This document shows positions 14,394 through 53,700 of a stretch of DNA of 64,000 nucleotides, piece by piece. A program made the position numbers and the translations under genes. Position 1 is the first letter of the stretch, and each line of letters begins with the position of its first letter. Origin of the DNA: Marchantia polymorpha subsp. ruderalis (Eukaryota > Streptophyta > Marchantiopsida > Marchantiales > Marchantiaceae); contig AP031353.1 of NCBI GenBank assembly GCA_037833965.1, forward strand, positions 26,104,501-26,168,500, written 5' to 3'. The notes beneath the pieces were generated by a model. The model worked only from the letters and a program-made list of their open reading frames with translations. It was not told the origin of the DNA and ran no database searches.

Positions 14394-15666
14394 TTACATC
14401 GGATCTGAAGCTCCAGTTGCAGCTCCAATACCTCCAGAAATATTATCTTGAGTGCAGATTTCCATATTGGCTTGCTCGGCCTCATCTGGTTGATATCTTA
14501 CTGAATCTGCGGTTTCCAAATGGTGATCGTTTTGGTCGGAGTGCAGATTACCTTGTCCTGAATCATCATCTTCTCCTCTATCTTCATCTGCGATTTCGTC
14601 AAAATCATCTGCTTTTGGTCTCGATCTGCTGACTTTTTTCTTCTTTCGCTGGTATTTGTAGGATCCTTTCCTCTTTTTGCGTCTTGATTTGCAACTCTCC
14701 TCAAAGTCTTCCAAATGATCACCACAATGAGCAATATTCTCGTAAGGCTCCCATGTGTTTTCCCTCTCGGGGTATCCGAGCCATTTGACTAAATATTCGA
14801 CTCTTCCCCTGTGTTGTCGTTTTTCCCGTATGGCTTCCAGCATATAAATTCCAGCTGCTAGAGGCTCCATCAGGTTCACCCCGGCATCTCCTGGAGCATT
14901 ATCTGGAATCCTACTCACTTCGTTTTCACCTTCCCAATCCATGCCATCAGCATCAGTCTCATCTGGTACCAAAGTAGTTCTTTGAACCCGACGACCTCTT
15001 CGAGTCCCACTAGACGGAGGCAAATGAACATCCTCCTCTTTAGAAGCAATATCGAGGTCTGTATAGCCTTCATCGTCGCAGTCCATATCGGTCTCTTGAT
15101 CAGCAACACCAACTGCGCGTTCTGCTAAGTCCTCTAAAGATCTTCCAGATGCATTCGCACATAGATCTTTCCCTTGAGTGTAAGCACCAGCCCTTTCTGG
15201 GCTCGTCCGCTGTTCGTTCGTATTGTCTTCACCCTGCGCTCCAGCTGGTTCAATCGAAGGATAATCGACTTCCTCTTTCACTATACTTGTCAGGCCATTC
15301 TCATACTTATTTCCATCAGAACCTCCGCTCAACTTGCCATTGGTTTCATATTCATGAGCCTGCTGTATACGACTTTGTTTCCGGTGTTTTTTACCGGCGT
15401 TGATAAAATCGTTCGACCATTTTGTACGACCAAGAAGGGGATCTGAAGGATTATGAAGGATACCCTAAACTCTCTCTGCAGTCAAAGGTCCCTTGCTATG
15501 AATGTTGGATTCTTCTGGCATGGAAGAGCTCCTGGCTTGTCTAGTGTAATATTGTTTCGTGCAATCCTTCCGCTGAATTCTATTTTCTGTATCCGAATCA
15601 TTGTCTATGCGATGTTTCCTACTTCTCGCTTGGGCCTTCAAATTTTTCTCCCATTTTCTCTCTAGG
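14394..15666 (-). CDS. LHP1-like chromodomain protein, interrupted by an in-frame TAG
   Basis: One minus-strand frame is open from a good acceptor (cactttcag, exon start 15666) to a TGA at 14394, except for a single TAG at 15465-15467. An acidic and serine-rich stretch precedes a chromodomain at about 14730-14860. Its core reads [20 protein letters not shown], then [15 protein letters not shown]. The aromatic cage residues known from HP1/LHP1 are all present (Y before MLEAI, W of VKW, Y of GYP). A strongly basic KKRK/KKKK tail follows, as in plant LHP1, which binds H3K27me3 with Polycomb. No chromoshadow domain follows; a possible donor (GGAG|GTATTG) lies near the 3' end, but no downstream exon was found. 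The TAG could be removed by a 108-base intron (15470-15363, GTTTAG to ATACAG), which keeps frame. Otherwise this is a truncated or recently disabled copy. A further protein-like frame at about 15750-15895 may be an upstream exon. Confidence 0.6.
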
Positions 15667-30192: not shown

Positions 30193-30322
30193 GTCTGGAA
30201 AAGTGAAGCAATTGGCTGTGGTCCTTTGCCCTTGCGGTACGAGTCAAGCTAACGCTTGTCTGGAAACGTGAAGCAATTGGCTGTGGTCCTTTGCCCTTGC
30301 GGTACGAGTCAAGCTAACGCTT
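30193..30322. repeat. Tandem duplication, 65-bp unit x2
   Basis: Bases 30193-30257 are repeated at 30258-30322 with one visible difference (tggaaaagtg against tggaaacgtg). The next three bases continue the unit. It is non-coding and lies about 1.2 kb upstream of the GT34 promoter. Confidence 0.9.
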
Positions 30323-30325
30323 GTC

Positions 30326-31406: not shown

Positions 31407-31999
31407 CCCCGTCTAGACCCAGGCATTGCAAGGAAGGAATGTGCAGCTTTGCACTTCTGACTTCATCGTCCTTCTGAGCCGAGCCGAGCCGAGCTGGGGG
31501 CTTTGGCATTGGCTTCTGTCTGTCTCTGCCTGCGCAGGCCTAGCGTCAGCCAGTGAGCAGCCAGCCAGTGATCCAGCCAGCCATCCCTCACTCCCTCCAT
31601 GCTCTCACCGCCGTGCACAATTGTACAACCAAGTATCTCAGCGGTGTGCTGCTCGCCTCCCTCCCTCTCTCTCTCACACTCTCTGTGACTGTCTCTTTCT
31701 CTTTCTCTCTCTCTCTCGTCTCCTCGTGCCCTCTCGCATCGCGCGGTCGCTCGTGCTCCGTCGCGATCGAGGGTCTGATCGGACCAGACCGGACGGGGCA
31801 GGATCTGGAGTTGGAGCTGGAGCTGGAGCAGCAGCAGCAGCAGGACGAGGAGCAGGCTGCACCAACAGCCGCCGGCGCAGTGGGGCTCAGGTTGAGGACA
31901 TAAATGACATACGCCCCAACCAAACCCCGCCAGCGTCGTACGAGACGCACATTGAGAAATAGAAATCAAAACAGTGCTAGCTGACAGAAGCAGTAGAAC

Positions 32000-32121
32000 G
32001 CATTGTGCTGCAGGTCCCAACGCAGCTAGAGCAGGCAGCAGTAATTCTGAGCTTCCGGTCGCATTGTGCTGCAGGTCCCAACGCAGCTAGAGCAGGCAGC
32101 AGTAATTCTGAGCTTCCGGTC
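32000..32121 (+). repeat. Perfect 61-bp tandem duplication in the GT34 leader
   Basis: Bases 32000-32060 and 32061-32121 are identical. The duplication adds 61 bases to the leader and contains no ATG, so it leaves the downstream ATG at 32183 unaffected. Perfect identity suggests a recent event or an assembly artefact. Confidence 0.95.
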
Positions 32122-32182: not shown

Positions 32183-34675
32183 ATGAAAGACAACGTAAAA
32201 TTGAGGACATCCTGGAGCTTGGCATCCATCGCGAGCAGGTTGTTTCAAGTGCCTCGGGCCGGAATCAAGCAGGGATTCTGGCAATTCCTGTTCGCGATCG
32301 TGGCCGCAGTTTTTACAGTCCTCGTAATCTGGGGACCCACTCTCTCGGCCCCGGCCGACGTCTCCACGCAGCATCAGCAGCAGCAGCAGCAGCCGGCCGG
32401 CCCCATCGTCCATCGCACCAGCAACGCGCTCGCGAACGAGAAGAGCCCCGTGCACTCGTCTTCGACAAAGAGTTCAGATGACGACGACGACGGGGTGCTG
32501 GGGGTGGAGAAGAAATTGAAGCTGGACGAGGCGAGCGACGAGGAATTGCGCCTGGTGGCGCTGCACAAGAAGCAGAAGGCGAGGAGCGAGGCCGCCACGA
32601 AGCCGCTGGTGAATTTGCGCGACAAGCGCTGGAACACGGCCTCGTTCGCCTTCGAGCCCGTGCATGCGGACTGGGACAAGCAGCGCGCGGCGGCGGCCCG
32701 GAATCGCCCCAACCTGCGCGCGCCGGTGGGCAGGAAGTCGCGCGTCATGCTCGTCACGGGCACGGGCCCGACCCCGTGCTCGCGGTCCGTCGGCAACTAC
32801 ATCTACATCAAGGCGGCCAAGAACAAGGTCGACTACTGTCGCCTGCACGACATCCAGCTCTTCTACAACATGGCCAGCCCGGACCCGAACTTCGACGGCT
32901 GGTGGACCAAAATCCCGCTACTGCGCTCGCTCATGGTGAGCCATCCCGAGGTGGACTGGTTCTGGTGGATGGACAGCGATGCGTGGATCACGGACATGAC
33001 GTTCGAGGTTCCGTTCGACAAGTACGCGGCTGCGGGCAAGAACCTGTTCCTCTACGGGGACGAGAGCAAAATGTACGGCGAGAAGAGCTGGATCGGGATC
33101 AACACGGGCGACATGGCCATCCGCAACTGCCAGTGGTCGCTGGATCTGCTCGACGCCTGGGCCTCGCTGGGCGTGGCAAGCGCGCGCGAGGCTTCCGGTA
33201 AGTTCCTGACCGAGGTGCTGACGGAGCGCCCGGCGAATTTCCCAGCCGACGACCAGTCGAGCCTGGCGTACCTGCTGGTGTTCGAGAAGCGCAGGTGGGC
33301 AGCCCAGACGGCGCTCGAAATGAGCTTCACGATGAGCGGGCACTGGCCGACGCTGACGGGGAAATTCGAGGAGCTCAGGGCCTCGTCGCACCCGGGCTTC
33401 GGCGATCACCGCTGGCCGCTCTGTGTGCACTTCGCGGGATGCCAGCCGTGCTCGGACATTGCAGGCTACGGGAAGTATCCTTGGGAAGCTTGCCAGCTGC
33501 AGATGGACCGCACCTTCGCCTTCGCGGACGACCAGGTGCTGCGGACGCTCGGATTCCAGGTCGACGGCGGGCTCGAGACCTCGGAGGTGAAGCCCCTGCA
33601 CGAGGAACTGCAGGAGGCCCTGGCGCCAGGCGTCCCGTACCACATCTACCCCAACGTCTCGGACTGGGACCTGCAGCGCCGCGCGTTCCTGAAGCGGTCC
33701 AAGGACCCGCGCGATCGCAAGGGGGCGAAGCCGCGAGTGCTGCTCGTCAGCGGCTCCGGGCCGCGCGAATGCCACGAGGTCCGAGGCACCCACTTCCTGC
33801 TCAAGGCCCTGAAGAATAAGATCGACTACGCGCGAATGCACGACATGGATTTCTTCTACAACATGGCGAATCTGGACAAGCAGCTGACAGGGTGGTGGGG
33901 GAAAATCCCCGTGATCCGGACCATGATGCTGGCGCATCCCGAGGCCGAGTGGATCTGGTGGGTGGATAGCGACGCCGTGTTCACGGATATGGTGTTCGAG
34001 CCGCCGCTGCAGAGCTACCCGGACTACAATCTGATCATGTGGGGTTCCGAGGAGATGGTGTTCGAGAAGAAGAGCTTCATCGGGCTCAATGCCGGGGACA
34101 TGATTGTTCGGAACTGCCAGTGGTCGCTGGATTTCTTCGACGCCATCATTCCATTTGGGCCCGAGGGGGCCGTGCGAGAAGAAGCGGGGAGGATGCTCAC
34201 CAAGGTGCTGACCGATCGGCCCGACATGCAGGCTGACGATCAGTCGGCCATCATCCACTTGCTCAACACGCAGAAGGCCAAGTACGCGTCCAAGGTCAAT
34301 TTCGAGAATGGTTACACTCTGAGTGGCTCTTGGGACTCCATCACCTTTAACTTCGAGAAGCTGATGGAAGAGCACCACCCCGGCTTCGGAGACTGGAGGT
34401 GGCCCCTCGTCACGCACTTCGCCGGCTGCCAGCCGTGCTCGCATCCTAACATGTGCAATTACAATCGCACTGACTGCTTCGAGCAGATGGATCGCTCGCT
34501 GCACTTCGCCGATAACCAGGTCATCCATGCGTATGGCCTCGAGCACAGGACTCTCGGCACCTGGGAGCTGCAGAAGCTGGGCACAGCTGCTGCAGCGGCC
34601 AAGGCCGCCAAGCTCTCAGATGCCGCTGGCAATGCCCCGCCGACGACCGAGTCCTTCAAGCAGAAATTCCACTGA
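32183..34675 (+). CDS. GT34 glycosyltransferase with two tandem catalytic domains
   Basis: This is an intronless 830-codon gene. The ATG at 32183 is the first in a frame that opens upstream without ATG. Layout: a short basic cytosolic tail, one membrane segment (about residues 33-50, FWQFLFAIVAAVFTVLVIW), a Gln/Ser/Asp-rich stem (60-180), GT34 domain 1 (about 160-460) and GT34 domain 2 (about 492-790). Each domain starts with a DWDxQR element (163-168, 494-499). Each also has the nucleotide-sugar DxD motif (WWMDSDAW at 261-268, WWVDSDAV at 592-599), an N.GD..IRNCQWSLD block, an ADDQS motif and HFAGCQPC (416-423, 745-752). Known GT34 enzymes are Golgi type II proteins of about 450-500 residues with one domain. 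They add xylose to xyloglucan (XXT) or galactose to mannan (GMGT/MUCI10). From memory, GCQPC and GLNAG are closer to the GMGT type, while XXTs have GCKPC. The function is therefore likely a cell-wall side-chain transferase; donor and acceptor are unknown. Both sites look intact. Confidence 0.93.
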   Translation: MKDNVKLRTSWSLASIASRLFQVPRAGIKQGFWQFLFAIVAAVFTVLVIWGPTLSAPADVSTQHQQQQQQPAGPIVHRTSNALANEKSPVHSSSTKSSDDDDDGVLGVEKKLKLDEASDEELRLVALHKKQKARSEAATKPLVNLRDKRWNTASFAFEPVHADWDKQRAAAARNRPNLRAPVGRKSRVMLVTGTGPTPCSRSVGNYIYIKAAKNKVDYCRLHDIQLFYNMASPDPNFDGWWTKIPLLRSLMVSHPEVDWFWWMDSDAWITDMTFEVPFDKYAAAGKNLFLYGDESKMYGEKSWIGINTGDMAIRNCQWSLDLLDAWASLGVASAREASGKFLTEVLTERPANFPADDQSSLAYLLVFEKRRWAAQTALEMSFTMSGHWPTLTGKFEELRASSHPGFGDHRWPLCVHFAGCQPCSDIAGYGKYPWEACQLQMDRTFAFADDQVLRTLGFQVDGGLETSEVKPLHEELQEALAPGVPYHIYPNVSDWDLQRRAFLKRSKDPRDRKGAKPRVLLVSGSGPRECHEVRGTHFLLKALKNKIDYARMHDMDFFYNMANLDKQLTGWWGKIPVIRTMMLAHPEAEWIWWVDSDAVFTDMVFEPPLQSYPDYNLIMWGSEEMVFEKKSFIGLNAGDMIVRNCQWSLDFFDAIIPFGPEGAVREEAGRMLTKVLTDRPDMQADDQSAIIHLLNTQKAKYASKVNFENGYTLSGSWDSITFNFEKLMEEHHPGFGDWRWPLVTHFAGCQPCSHPNMCNYNRTDCFEQMDRSLHFADNQVIHAYGLEHRTLGTWELQKLGTAAAAAKAAKLSDAAGNAPPTTESFKQKFH

Positions 34676-50716: not shown

Positions 50717-53700
50717 CTATGACAAAGCGTTGGGAGGCCTACGCATACTGAGCTCCTGCCTTACCCTCGGCACGCCTTCTAGATTGTAGTGAAGTTGCAG
50801 AAGCTCCTGCGCACACAATTTCCAGCCATTAGTGTCTGCCCCTGTAGGACAATGTAACCAAATTAGAAAAGCAAACACTCTTACAAGTCAGTACCTCTGC
50901 AGCAGCACGGGCTTTTTCTAGAATCTCGCCATCTTTCTCCAGCCGAGCAATGTGAAATTCAGGAAGATAACCTGATTGTTGTTTTCCTAATAAGTCTCCT
51001 GGTCCTCTTAGCTTCAAGTCAACCTCTGCAAGATAGAATCCATCCCTCGATGTTTCCAACATCTTCAGCCTTGCAAGAGATGAAGGTCTTGATCCCAACA
51101 ATATGCAGGAGGAATCCCTTGTACCTCGTCCCACACGACCCCTCAACTGATGCAGTTGGGCCATGCCATATCTTTCGGCATGCTCTATAACAATCATAGA
51201 TGCTTCGGGGATATCTATGCCAACCTCGATCACAGTGGTTGAAACCAGAACCTTCGTTTCTCCTGCTTTGAACCGTTCCATTGCCTCGTCCTTTTCATGA
51301 GAACGCATACGGCCATGAACAAGACCACACTTGTAATTCTCGAACTCAACTTCAAGGTTCTTGAACTCACTTTCTGCTGCTCGGACATCCGGTAACTCTT
51401 CCGATTCTTCTATCACAGGATAGACAACGAAGACGCGTCCTCCATTTTCAAGCTCTTCCCGTACTTTCTGATATCATGTAATACATGACACGTTAAAATA
51501 CTTCACCCCATGTACATGGTTTTTAATTTCGACCCAAATGTCAACTCATCGATTACTTAAACACTTGAGAAACTATCAGGATTACCTATACAACTCATTC
51601 AAAAGATAGAAACTGAGTAAGACTCTAAAACTAGGCTCGTCTAACCTCAATACCTTGTAAACTTCTTGGCGTCCCTTCTTATCTCCTAAAATAGCGTATG
51701 TTGCAGTCTCTGGTCGACCTGGAGGCAGCTCTGTAATCTGCCCAATTGTATAAGACGGTGAGAAATCGTAAGCCTAAGATGATAAAAGCACTCTTATTTT
51801 GAAAACTAATAGGGGGTCGTCAGACCCACATCTACATATTCTCCCTTTGGTACCAACATTTCCTGTTTAGTTACATCGGACAAATAAATTCTTCTCAGAT
51901 GACCTGTGATTTCAATCCTCAGAAGACAGGAGATATCCGGTTATGACATGACACTGCTGCAAGCGGAGATTGGACCTGATTCAAATACCTGACTCAGGGC
52001 CATATCTCCATGTAAAGCCAATGCCAATGTTCGAGGTATAGGGGTTGCAGACATTGCGAGAACATGAGGAGGCAATGTAGTGGATTTGGCTTCTCCTTCA
52101 GTTGTATCTGGCAGTTCAACGGCATCACGTACCTGCAGAATTGCATGCTCATTTTATTTCGTGTTAAAGACATAAAGCTGAATGATGCTAACTTCGGCGA
52201 TGTAAGAGGTCTTCTTTTTAGATATATATATTGAGCAGCATCTAGATGGAGAAACGAGACCCCTATTATAGATTTGCTCCAGACGCGTATACAGTGAATC
52301 GCAGAAACAATTGAACAGGAACTCTCAACGACACTGCATTCTCACCACCAAGCTCAGTAAGATGAACCTTTGCAGCATATACAAGTCACTTCAAACAGTT
52401 GAGATTGGTATATGCACCTTGCTATTAAGGCGTCCACGCTGAGCCACACCAAATCGGTGTTGCTCGTCTATAACTCCAAGCCTCAGTGCCGAAAATTTGA
52501 CACTGTCTGCAATCAGACTATGCGTGCCAACAGCCAAATCAATCTCACCATTTTCGAAACCCTGTAACAAACATTCAAAGAGTTAAAACATTTCACACAG
52601 AAAGCAGATAGTGTTACAGGTGACCAGCCCGACGTTATGAGCAGTTTGTCTGAAACCTCCAAAAATAAGAAAGCCAGAAAATTGCGGAAAGTGGTTATGT
52701 CGAGCCTTAAACTGTAGATCCTAGGGAAATCACACGAGAGAGTATTGTAGTTCAAAATTGTATAAATAATCAACGTCACAACGATGACACGCATTACACT
52801 TACACTTCTTATAACACGGGCTTTGCTTACGGGGGTCGATCCTGTAAGTAATGCTACACGAGGTCTTTCACTTTCATCTAATTTTTCTAACCAGGAAGAG
52901 ATCCTTTGGTAGTGCTGAACAGCTAAAAATTCTGTCGGCGCCATCAGAGCTCCCTGCAGTGTTGGACAGGTAAACTTGCTGTAAGATCAGCTCTAGTCAT
53001 TCTTATACGAGGTAATTACGCCTTCGTCTCTCACGGTATCTACTCAATTAGCATGAAAATATAAAATCCAGCGCTCTTCACAGCAAGAACGAGAAGAGAT
53101 TTCAAAAGCATGACCAAATTGGGACCAGTTCGAACTTTACAATCTACTACTAATTTCTGGGAACGAAACAAGATGAGGAAGAACCTGGTAGCCTGCATCA
53201 ACAACTTCTAAAAGTGCGAGAAATGCCACCACTGTTTTGCCGCATCCCACATCACCCTACAAAGAACCAAAGAGTTATTCTCAATTACGCTGCCAAGCAT
53301 TAACTAGAAGTTAGGACATTCCCAACGAAAAAGAAGATAAATTCTTGATGAGAATACGGAACGGCAGCTACGGACTCTCTCTTCGTCCAAGTACCTGCAA
53401 AAGTCGGCTCATTGGAACAGGTCTTTGTAGATCCCACATGATCTCCCCGGCTGCCCTTATTTGAGATTGAGTCAAAGTATATGGAAGAGATTTCACAAGC
53501 TTCAAAGTCAAGGGGGACCAGTTCTCCATGTTGAGAACTCCCGATTTGGATACCAGGGCCGGGTCAGCCATACCAGCAGCTGCAAGACATTTGCCGGCTA
53601 GTTCTTGCCTAGGTAGAAGCATTCCAAGCTGCAAGAAGTGCTCACTATAAGATCTCTATGTTCGAGACTCTCATGTATCCACCAATAAAGAAATTTAGAT

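Follow-up and report, generated by a model that had tools for sequence, protein, structure and literature searches.

The window analysed here is a 64,000-nucleotide stretch of the genome of the liverwort Marchantia polymorpha subsp. ruderalis (G000:C4:26104501-26168500; the genome comprises 241 Mb in nine contigs). It carries a gene for a glycosyltransferase family 34 (GT34) protein with two GT34 domains, D1 and D2, in a single chain (Table 1). The open reading frame (ORF) begins with an ATG at 32183 and runs uninterrupted to a stop codon that ends at 34675, encoding 830 amino acids. This start codon fits because the N-termini of the 12 such proteins described below are mostly MKD-like: eight are MKD (including one MMKD), three are MKE or MKS, and P0002 has a later start.

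Table 1. Double-domain GT34 gene of M. polymorpha and its upstream flank (positions in the window).
Feature	Residues	Position	Strand	Remarks
Perfect 61-bp tandem duplication		31999..32121	+	Ends ~60 bp upstream of start codon
Double-domain GT34 ORF		32183..34675	+	830 aa plus stop; frame without intron
Signal-anchor, the sole one	31-50	32273..32332	+	Hydropathy; helix 28-50 in first model
Low-complexity stem	51-153	32333..32641	+	Mostly disordered by prediction, pLDDT mostly <50
GT34 domain 1 (D1)	154-458	32642..33556	+	
D1 DSD metal motif	264-266	32972..32980	+	
D1 ADDQS	355-359	33245..33259	+	
D1 HFAGCQPC	416-423	33428..33451	+	
Inter-domain linker	459-484	33557..33634	+	Without hydrophobic segment
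GT34 domain 2 (D2)	485-786	33635..34540	+	
D2 DSD metal motif	595-597	33965..33973	+	
D2 ADDQS	684-688	34232..34246	+	
D2 HFAGCQPC	745-752	34415..34438	+	

The Pfam profile PF05637 matches the ORF with 312 bits against a curated cut-off of 23, the match being split over two stretches. In a whole-genome scan D1 scored 150.7 bits (E 5.7e-42) and D2 164.2 bits (E 4.2e-46), which is far beyond chance. Each half aligns full-length with the solved structures of the xyloglucan xylosyltransferases (XXTs) XXT1, XXT2 and XXT5. Both halves have the features of GT34 members, an XXT1-like GT-A fold and the DxD, ADDQ and HFxGC motifs; the paired motifs of D1 and D2 are DWDKQR and DWDLQR, DSDAWITD and DSDAVFTD, and ADDQS and HFAGCQPC in each. 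Hydropathy reveals one hydrophobic anchor, residues 31-49, with a 19-residue mean of 2.34. No second hydrophobic segment was found by this measure, the highest mean beyond residue 70 being 0.75 and that of the linker 0.07, and we infer a type II membrane topology. The original prediction, made from the letters alone, had described two full GT34 domains with these motifs behind one membrane anchor in an intronless frame, a departure from the family norm of one domain per chain. The domains, the anchor and the departure from the norm are all borne out, and the uninterrupted frame is consistent with an intronless gene.

Proteins of this kind are not confined to M. polymorpha. Three protein searches gave at least 101 matches, all of them listed, the best 120 of 324 matches, and the best 120 of at least 211; P0102, part of the query of the third search, is missing from the matches listed for it. 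The 223 different proteins pooled from these lists were all scanned for domains with a profile built here, which carried out a search for proteins with two PF05637 domains proposed with the original prediction. A single GT34 domain is present in 210. Another 12 have one N-terminal part followed by a pair of GT34 domains, and they come from five species that are all liverworts: M. polymorpha (1), M. paleacea (1), Riccia fluitans (2), R. sorocarpa (3) and Calypogeia fissa (5). Calypogeia is a leafy liverwort of the Jungermanniopsida, and Riccia belongs to the Marchantiopsida. The locus numbers of the Riccia double proteins adjoin within each species and their contigs are equally long, which suggests that their genes lie in small clusters. 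Among the 223 listed homologues, which include no hornwort name, no double-domain GT34 protein was found outside liverworts except Papaver somniferum P0003 (1290 aa), rejected as a run-on of three tandem XXT genes since it holds three near-complete XXTs in series, each with an N-terminal anchor region. P0157 was likewise rejected as a double protein; it gave two stretches in a first scan, of 162 of the proteins, and one domain in a later one. The many double GT34 proteins elsewhere that would have spoken against a novel architecture were thus not encountered, although absence from other lineages is provisional. A literature search by phrase for double or tandem GT34 proteins found none, which is weak evidence of absence as it covered openly licensed papers only. 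Surveys of GT34 can miss these proteins because they are 725 to 954 aa long (n=12), and one recent tree excluded sequences of more than 600 aa (PMC11785759). It is reasonable to conclude that the double protein is a real, conserved variant of GT34 architecture, shared by five liverwort species from two classes and absent from all other lineages represented among the examined proteins.

The M. polymorpha genome contains one double GT34 gene. Of the 15 GT34 matches in a genome scan, two are the halves of the double gene and nine are single-domain genes (L001-L008, L011). Two more are broken copies (L012, L013), and one other region holds the last two, both short (L014, L015). The window protein is identical to database protein P0001, and the subsp. 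ruderalis proteins P0096, P0156 and P0184 match genome ORFs L011, L004 and L003 exactly. One single-domain gene, L005 (G000:C4:26093574-26094290, minus strand), is encoded ~42 kb upstream, on the strand opposite to the double gene; in the tree described below it groups with L007, apart from the double domains. The broken copies, near 3.73 (L012) and 3.67 Mb (L013) of the same contig, have in-frame stops and resemble the intact L007 at 3.87 Mb.

The two domains differ in how strictly their catalytic residues are kept. Residues are numbered as in XXT1, with ADDQS anchored as 316-320 of Raphanus XXT1; a structural alignment to 6bsu starts at 116, the same as the sequence alignment. The roles of H377 and K382 are assumed. 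The DxD motif binds metal in XXTs (PMC9201394). D227, D229 and H377 are all kept in D2 of 12 of 12 proteins and in D1 of 7 of 12. In Riccia, none of five D1 domains has the metal-site residues intact: position 377 is S in three, D in one, N in one and H in none, and D227 or D229 is additionally changed in three. These five losses are related and count as few events. Other D1 losses affect D318 (two Riccia domains and Cfis12) and Q319 (Cfis12 and Cfis102). Across D227, D229, D317, D318, Q319 and H377, the only change in D2 is D317E in two R. sorocarpa proteins, and all six residues are kept in D1 and D2 of both Marchantia species. To judge from these residues, D1 has intact catalytic motifs in Marchantia and an intact metal site in Calypogeia, and is decayed in Riccia.

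Other positions set the double domains apart from single-domain GT34 proteins. K382 occurs in 1 of 24 double domains versus 30 of 43 single domains, H346 in 0 of 24 versus 31 of 43, and W203 in 17 of 24 versus 2 of 43, the counts for single domains depending on the choice of rows. M. polymorpha D1 and D2 are alike at 203, 346 and 382 (W, S and Q). Both have Q and S where XXTs typically have K382 and H346, and both Marchantia domains have the Q382 in HFxGCQPC that is typical of mannan alpha-galactosyltransferases (MAGTs). The original prediction had read the difference between DSDAWITD and DSDAVFTD as a possible sign of different donors or acceptors; as a donor switch it is rejected because the sites that separate GT34 groups in this alignment are 203, 346 and 382. 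Since F203 of XXT1 is proposed to touch C5 of xylose (PMC9201394), W203 is a lead to the donor pocket. Together with the change at K382, it is the best lead to a different donor pocket, with the donor itself not indicated. At I391, as printed in PMC9201394, this alignment has no I/G difference. The difference between I in the XXT1 row and G in the XXT4 and XXT5 rows falls at 351; position 351 was used here, and the discrepancy is left standing.

Descent was examined in a tree of 67 domains, the 24 double domains and 43 single ones (nine from this genome and 34 hand-picked from the matches), with the root assumed, from family knowledge, to lie among the single-domain rows. All 24 double domains are split from the 43 single rows by a branch with 99/98 support. 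They group neither with the XXTs nor with the four putative MAGT rows, a separate clade (98/94) assigned to the MAGTs by record name and by general family background. A comparison of each domain with the XXT and GMGT clades had been proposed with the original prediction; the tree built here places the double proteins outside both groups. By their residues, the active sites are not XXT-like, and the proteins lie outside the MAGT clade. The D1s stand together on one side of a branch with 98/89 support, and residues largely restricted to D1, or to D2, recur in both liverwort classes. A single duplication before the classes split is favoured because the D1s group in the best tree, and the class-spanning residues agree with it; in our judgement it is likely. 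The single-domain database proteins P0084 and P0101 have W203 as in the doubles and form their own 100/100 group. They are possible relatives of the form before duplication, a placement that the tree does not show.

Based on these results, the most probable reading, at roughly 0.55, is that the double protein is a liverwort-specific covalent pseudo-dimer that arose by duplication of a GT34 domain, with D2 as a constrained transferase and D1 as its partner. An ancestral domain would have been duplicated within the gene, or the gene copied and then fused, probably before thalloid and leafy liverworts split. One N-terminal anchor would insert the protein in the Golgi membrane and leave both GT-A domains on the lumenal side. 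Homodimers as well as heterodimers of XXTs are reported, and the subunits of XXT1 are opposite in direction in the crystal (PMC9201394, PMC7933479). In the double protein, D1 and D2 are predicted to pack as a lasting intramolecular pseudo-dimer that would replace such dimers of separate chains. An AlphaFold2 model made with a second, deeper alignment of 52 rows has two GT-A domains in a fixed mutual arrangement (pTM, the predicted template modelling score, 0.94), and its D2 superposes on XXT1. The first, full-length model from 12 rows was weak (pLDDT, the predicted local distance difference test, 70.2; pTM 0.72), and the other four models had pLDDT of at most 66.5.

D2, the more tightly constrained domain, is the likely transferase. 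It would be a metal-dependent retaining enzyme which, by analogy with the family, probably decorates a beta-1,4-linked backbone with an alpha-1,6-linked sugar. D1 would hold or position D2 or the acceptor. The fusion persists in Riccia although D1 is decayed there and no longer plausible as an enzyme, which favours a lasting role of D1 other than catalysis; stability, Golgi exit and acceptor holding are candidates, with catalysis as a possible extra, and D1 of Marchantia may still be catalytic. The original prediction had offered two options, that one domain binds while the other transfers, or that both act in succession. The first fits Riccia, where the D1 metal site is lost in all five proteins, and the second is possible in Marchantia and part of Calypogeia. 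Its observation holds, and its functional options are narrowed but not settled.

Several points weigh against the pseudo-dimer of a transferase and a partner. With motifs intact in both Marchantia domains, D1 could be fully enzymatic in that genus. For XXT1, no dimers were found in vivo (PMC9201394), and of the 52 rows used for the AlphaFold2 model only 12 include both domains. With regard to descent, the best tree does not unite the D2s, and constraining them to one clade comes at a cost of 1.4 log units (p 0.394). Independent duplications are compatible with the data under approximately unbiased (AU) tests, with p 0.145 for one in Calypogeia and p 0.16 for one in Marchantiopsida. Among 200 bootstrap trees of the double domains alone, 30% contain the D1/D2 split; the share falls to 13% once the four domains of Cfis12 and Cfis102 are dropped. 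Both D2 monophyly and this outgroup-free split were tried, and neither was resolved. In Calypogeia, D1 shows no clear excess of divergence over D2, and several Calypogeia domains have long branches. Some columns support the opposite grouping; for example, I207 is common to D1 and D2 of Marchantiopsida and occurs in 1 of 10 Calypogeia domains and 2 of 43 singles.

A bolder version of the pseudo-dimer reading is that the double proteins are a third class of plant GT34, found only in liverworts, in which an old duplication gave a covalent dimer that has a donor or acceptor other than those of XXTs and MAGTs and makes a side chain peculiar to liverwort walls, while one half is becoming non-catalytic, a state attained in Riccia but not in Marchantia. 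This is put forward tentatively, as a possibility short of probable.

It is rather unlikely that both domains are active in Marchantia and decorate adjacent backbone residues in succession, one having been lost secondarily in Riccia. The six catalytic residues kept in both Marchantia domains agree with such a protein, and xyloglucan of M. polymorpha is reported to be of the XXGG type, in which two xyloses are adjacent (PMC3087550). However, two sites are not required because XXT1 by itself is able to place xyloses next to each other in vitro (PMC9201394). The double protein also need not be a xyloglucan xylosyltransferase because four separate Marchantia genes, L001-L004, carry XXT-type sites (F203, H346, I351 and K382). 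In all five Riccia proteins found, the fusion is kept although D1 is decayed.

A doubled liverwort mannan (glucomannan) alpha-galactosyltransferase is less likely still. Both Marchantia domains have Q382 and HFAGCQPC and lack H346, as do the four MAGT-type rows, but the doubles lie apart from the clade of those rows, none of which has W203. Identity of D1 and D2 is 49% and 52% to Raphanus XXT1 versus 38% and 42% to the one MAGT compared, and two other Marchantia genes, L006 and L008, have an HFTGCQPC motif. Finally, an assembly join or run-on model of two adjacent single-domain genes, a risk that the original prediction had named and that the Papaver protein exemplifies, is very improbable given the single open frame, the absence of a second anchor, the 12 double proteins in five species, the cluster of the window protein (2 member sequences on 4 contigs) and the predicted packing as one unit; the halves share 47% identity, against 49% and 52% with Raphanus XXT1, and so are neither a recent tandem copy nor two joined alleles.

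Elsewhere in the window, the 61-bp tandem duplication perhaps lies within the 5' leader of the double gene; in a mechanical ORF list each copy provides a GTG start, one at 32005 and one at 32066, and the two frames differ. A near-perfect (98%) 65-bp tandem duplication is found at 30193-30325, ~2 kb upstream of the gene. A 356-aa ORF at 14397-15464 (minus strand) has a chromodomain. Its relative on contig C6 near 29.3 Mb matches in four blocks, the longest 91% identical; the remaining 109 of 114 matches span the chromodomain part only, many in 1157-aa frames that are probably retroelements. An open frame at 50832-51473 (minus strand) matches helicase C-terminal and RecG C-terminal domains and may be an exon of a gene for an organellar RecG-type helicase. 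Scans of the window against Rfam, at the gathering threshold, and for tRNAs gave no matches.

Such a fusion could shed light on the workings of paired wall-building enzymes. One half is strict and the other relaxed, intact in Marchantia and decayed in Riccia, so the value of a second subunit can be tested in a model plant. Among known systems, the LARGE1, chondroitin synthase and LH3 proteins have two mutually distant domains, and LARGE1 and chondroitin synthases use different donors. Like these enzymes, the double protein has two GT-A folds per chain (for LARGE1, PMC9746966), but its halves are GT34 sisters. A Megaviridae protein of 510 aa, A0A5J6VKF9 ('GMA12/MNN10 family galactosyl transferase'), may hold two GT34-like domains, as suggested by a Foldseek structure match over 653 columns including gaps (E 8.3e-14). 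With 10% identity and a root-mean-square deviation of 13.8 A from the double model, it would at best have another mutual arrangement. The MAGTs (GMGT, MUCI10, GT6/GT7) share HFAGCQPC with Q382 and the lack of H346 with the Marchantia double protein, but have one domain per chain, a separate clade and, in the four rows compared, Y or C at 203. XXT1, XXT2 and XXT5 (PDB 6bsu, 9p3j) resemble the doubles in fold and length per domain, in DSD, ADDQS and HFxGC, and in the type II anchor. XXT4 and XXT5 are reported to be slow, and their share in catalysis is disputed (PMC9201394). In the tree the doubles lie apart from the XXT groups, and, unlike XXTs, they rarely have K382, never have H346 and mostly have W at F/Y203. 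XXTs pair as homo- or heterodimers of single-domain chains, whereas the liverwort proteins have two domains in one chain.
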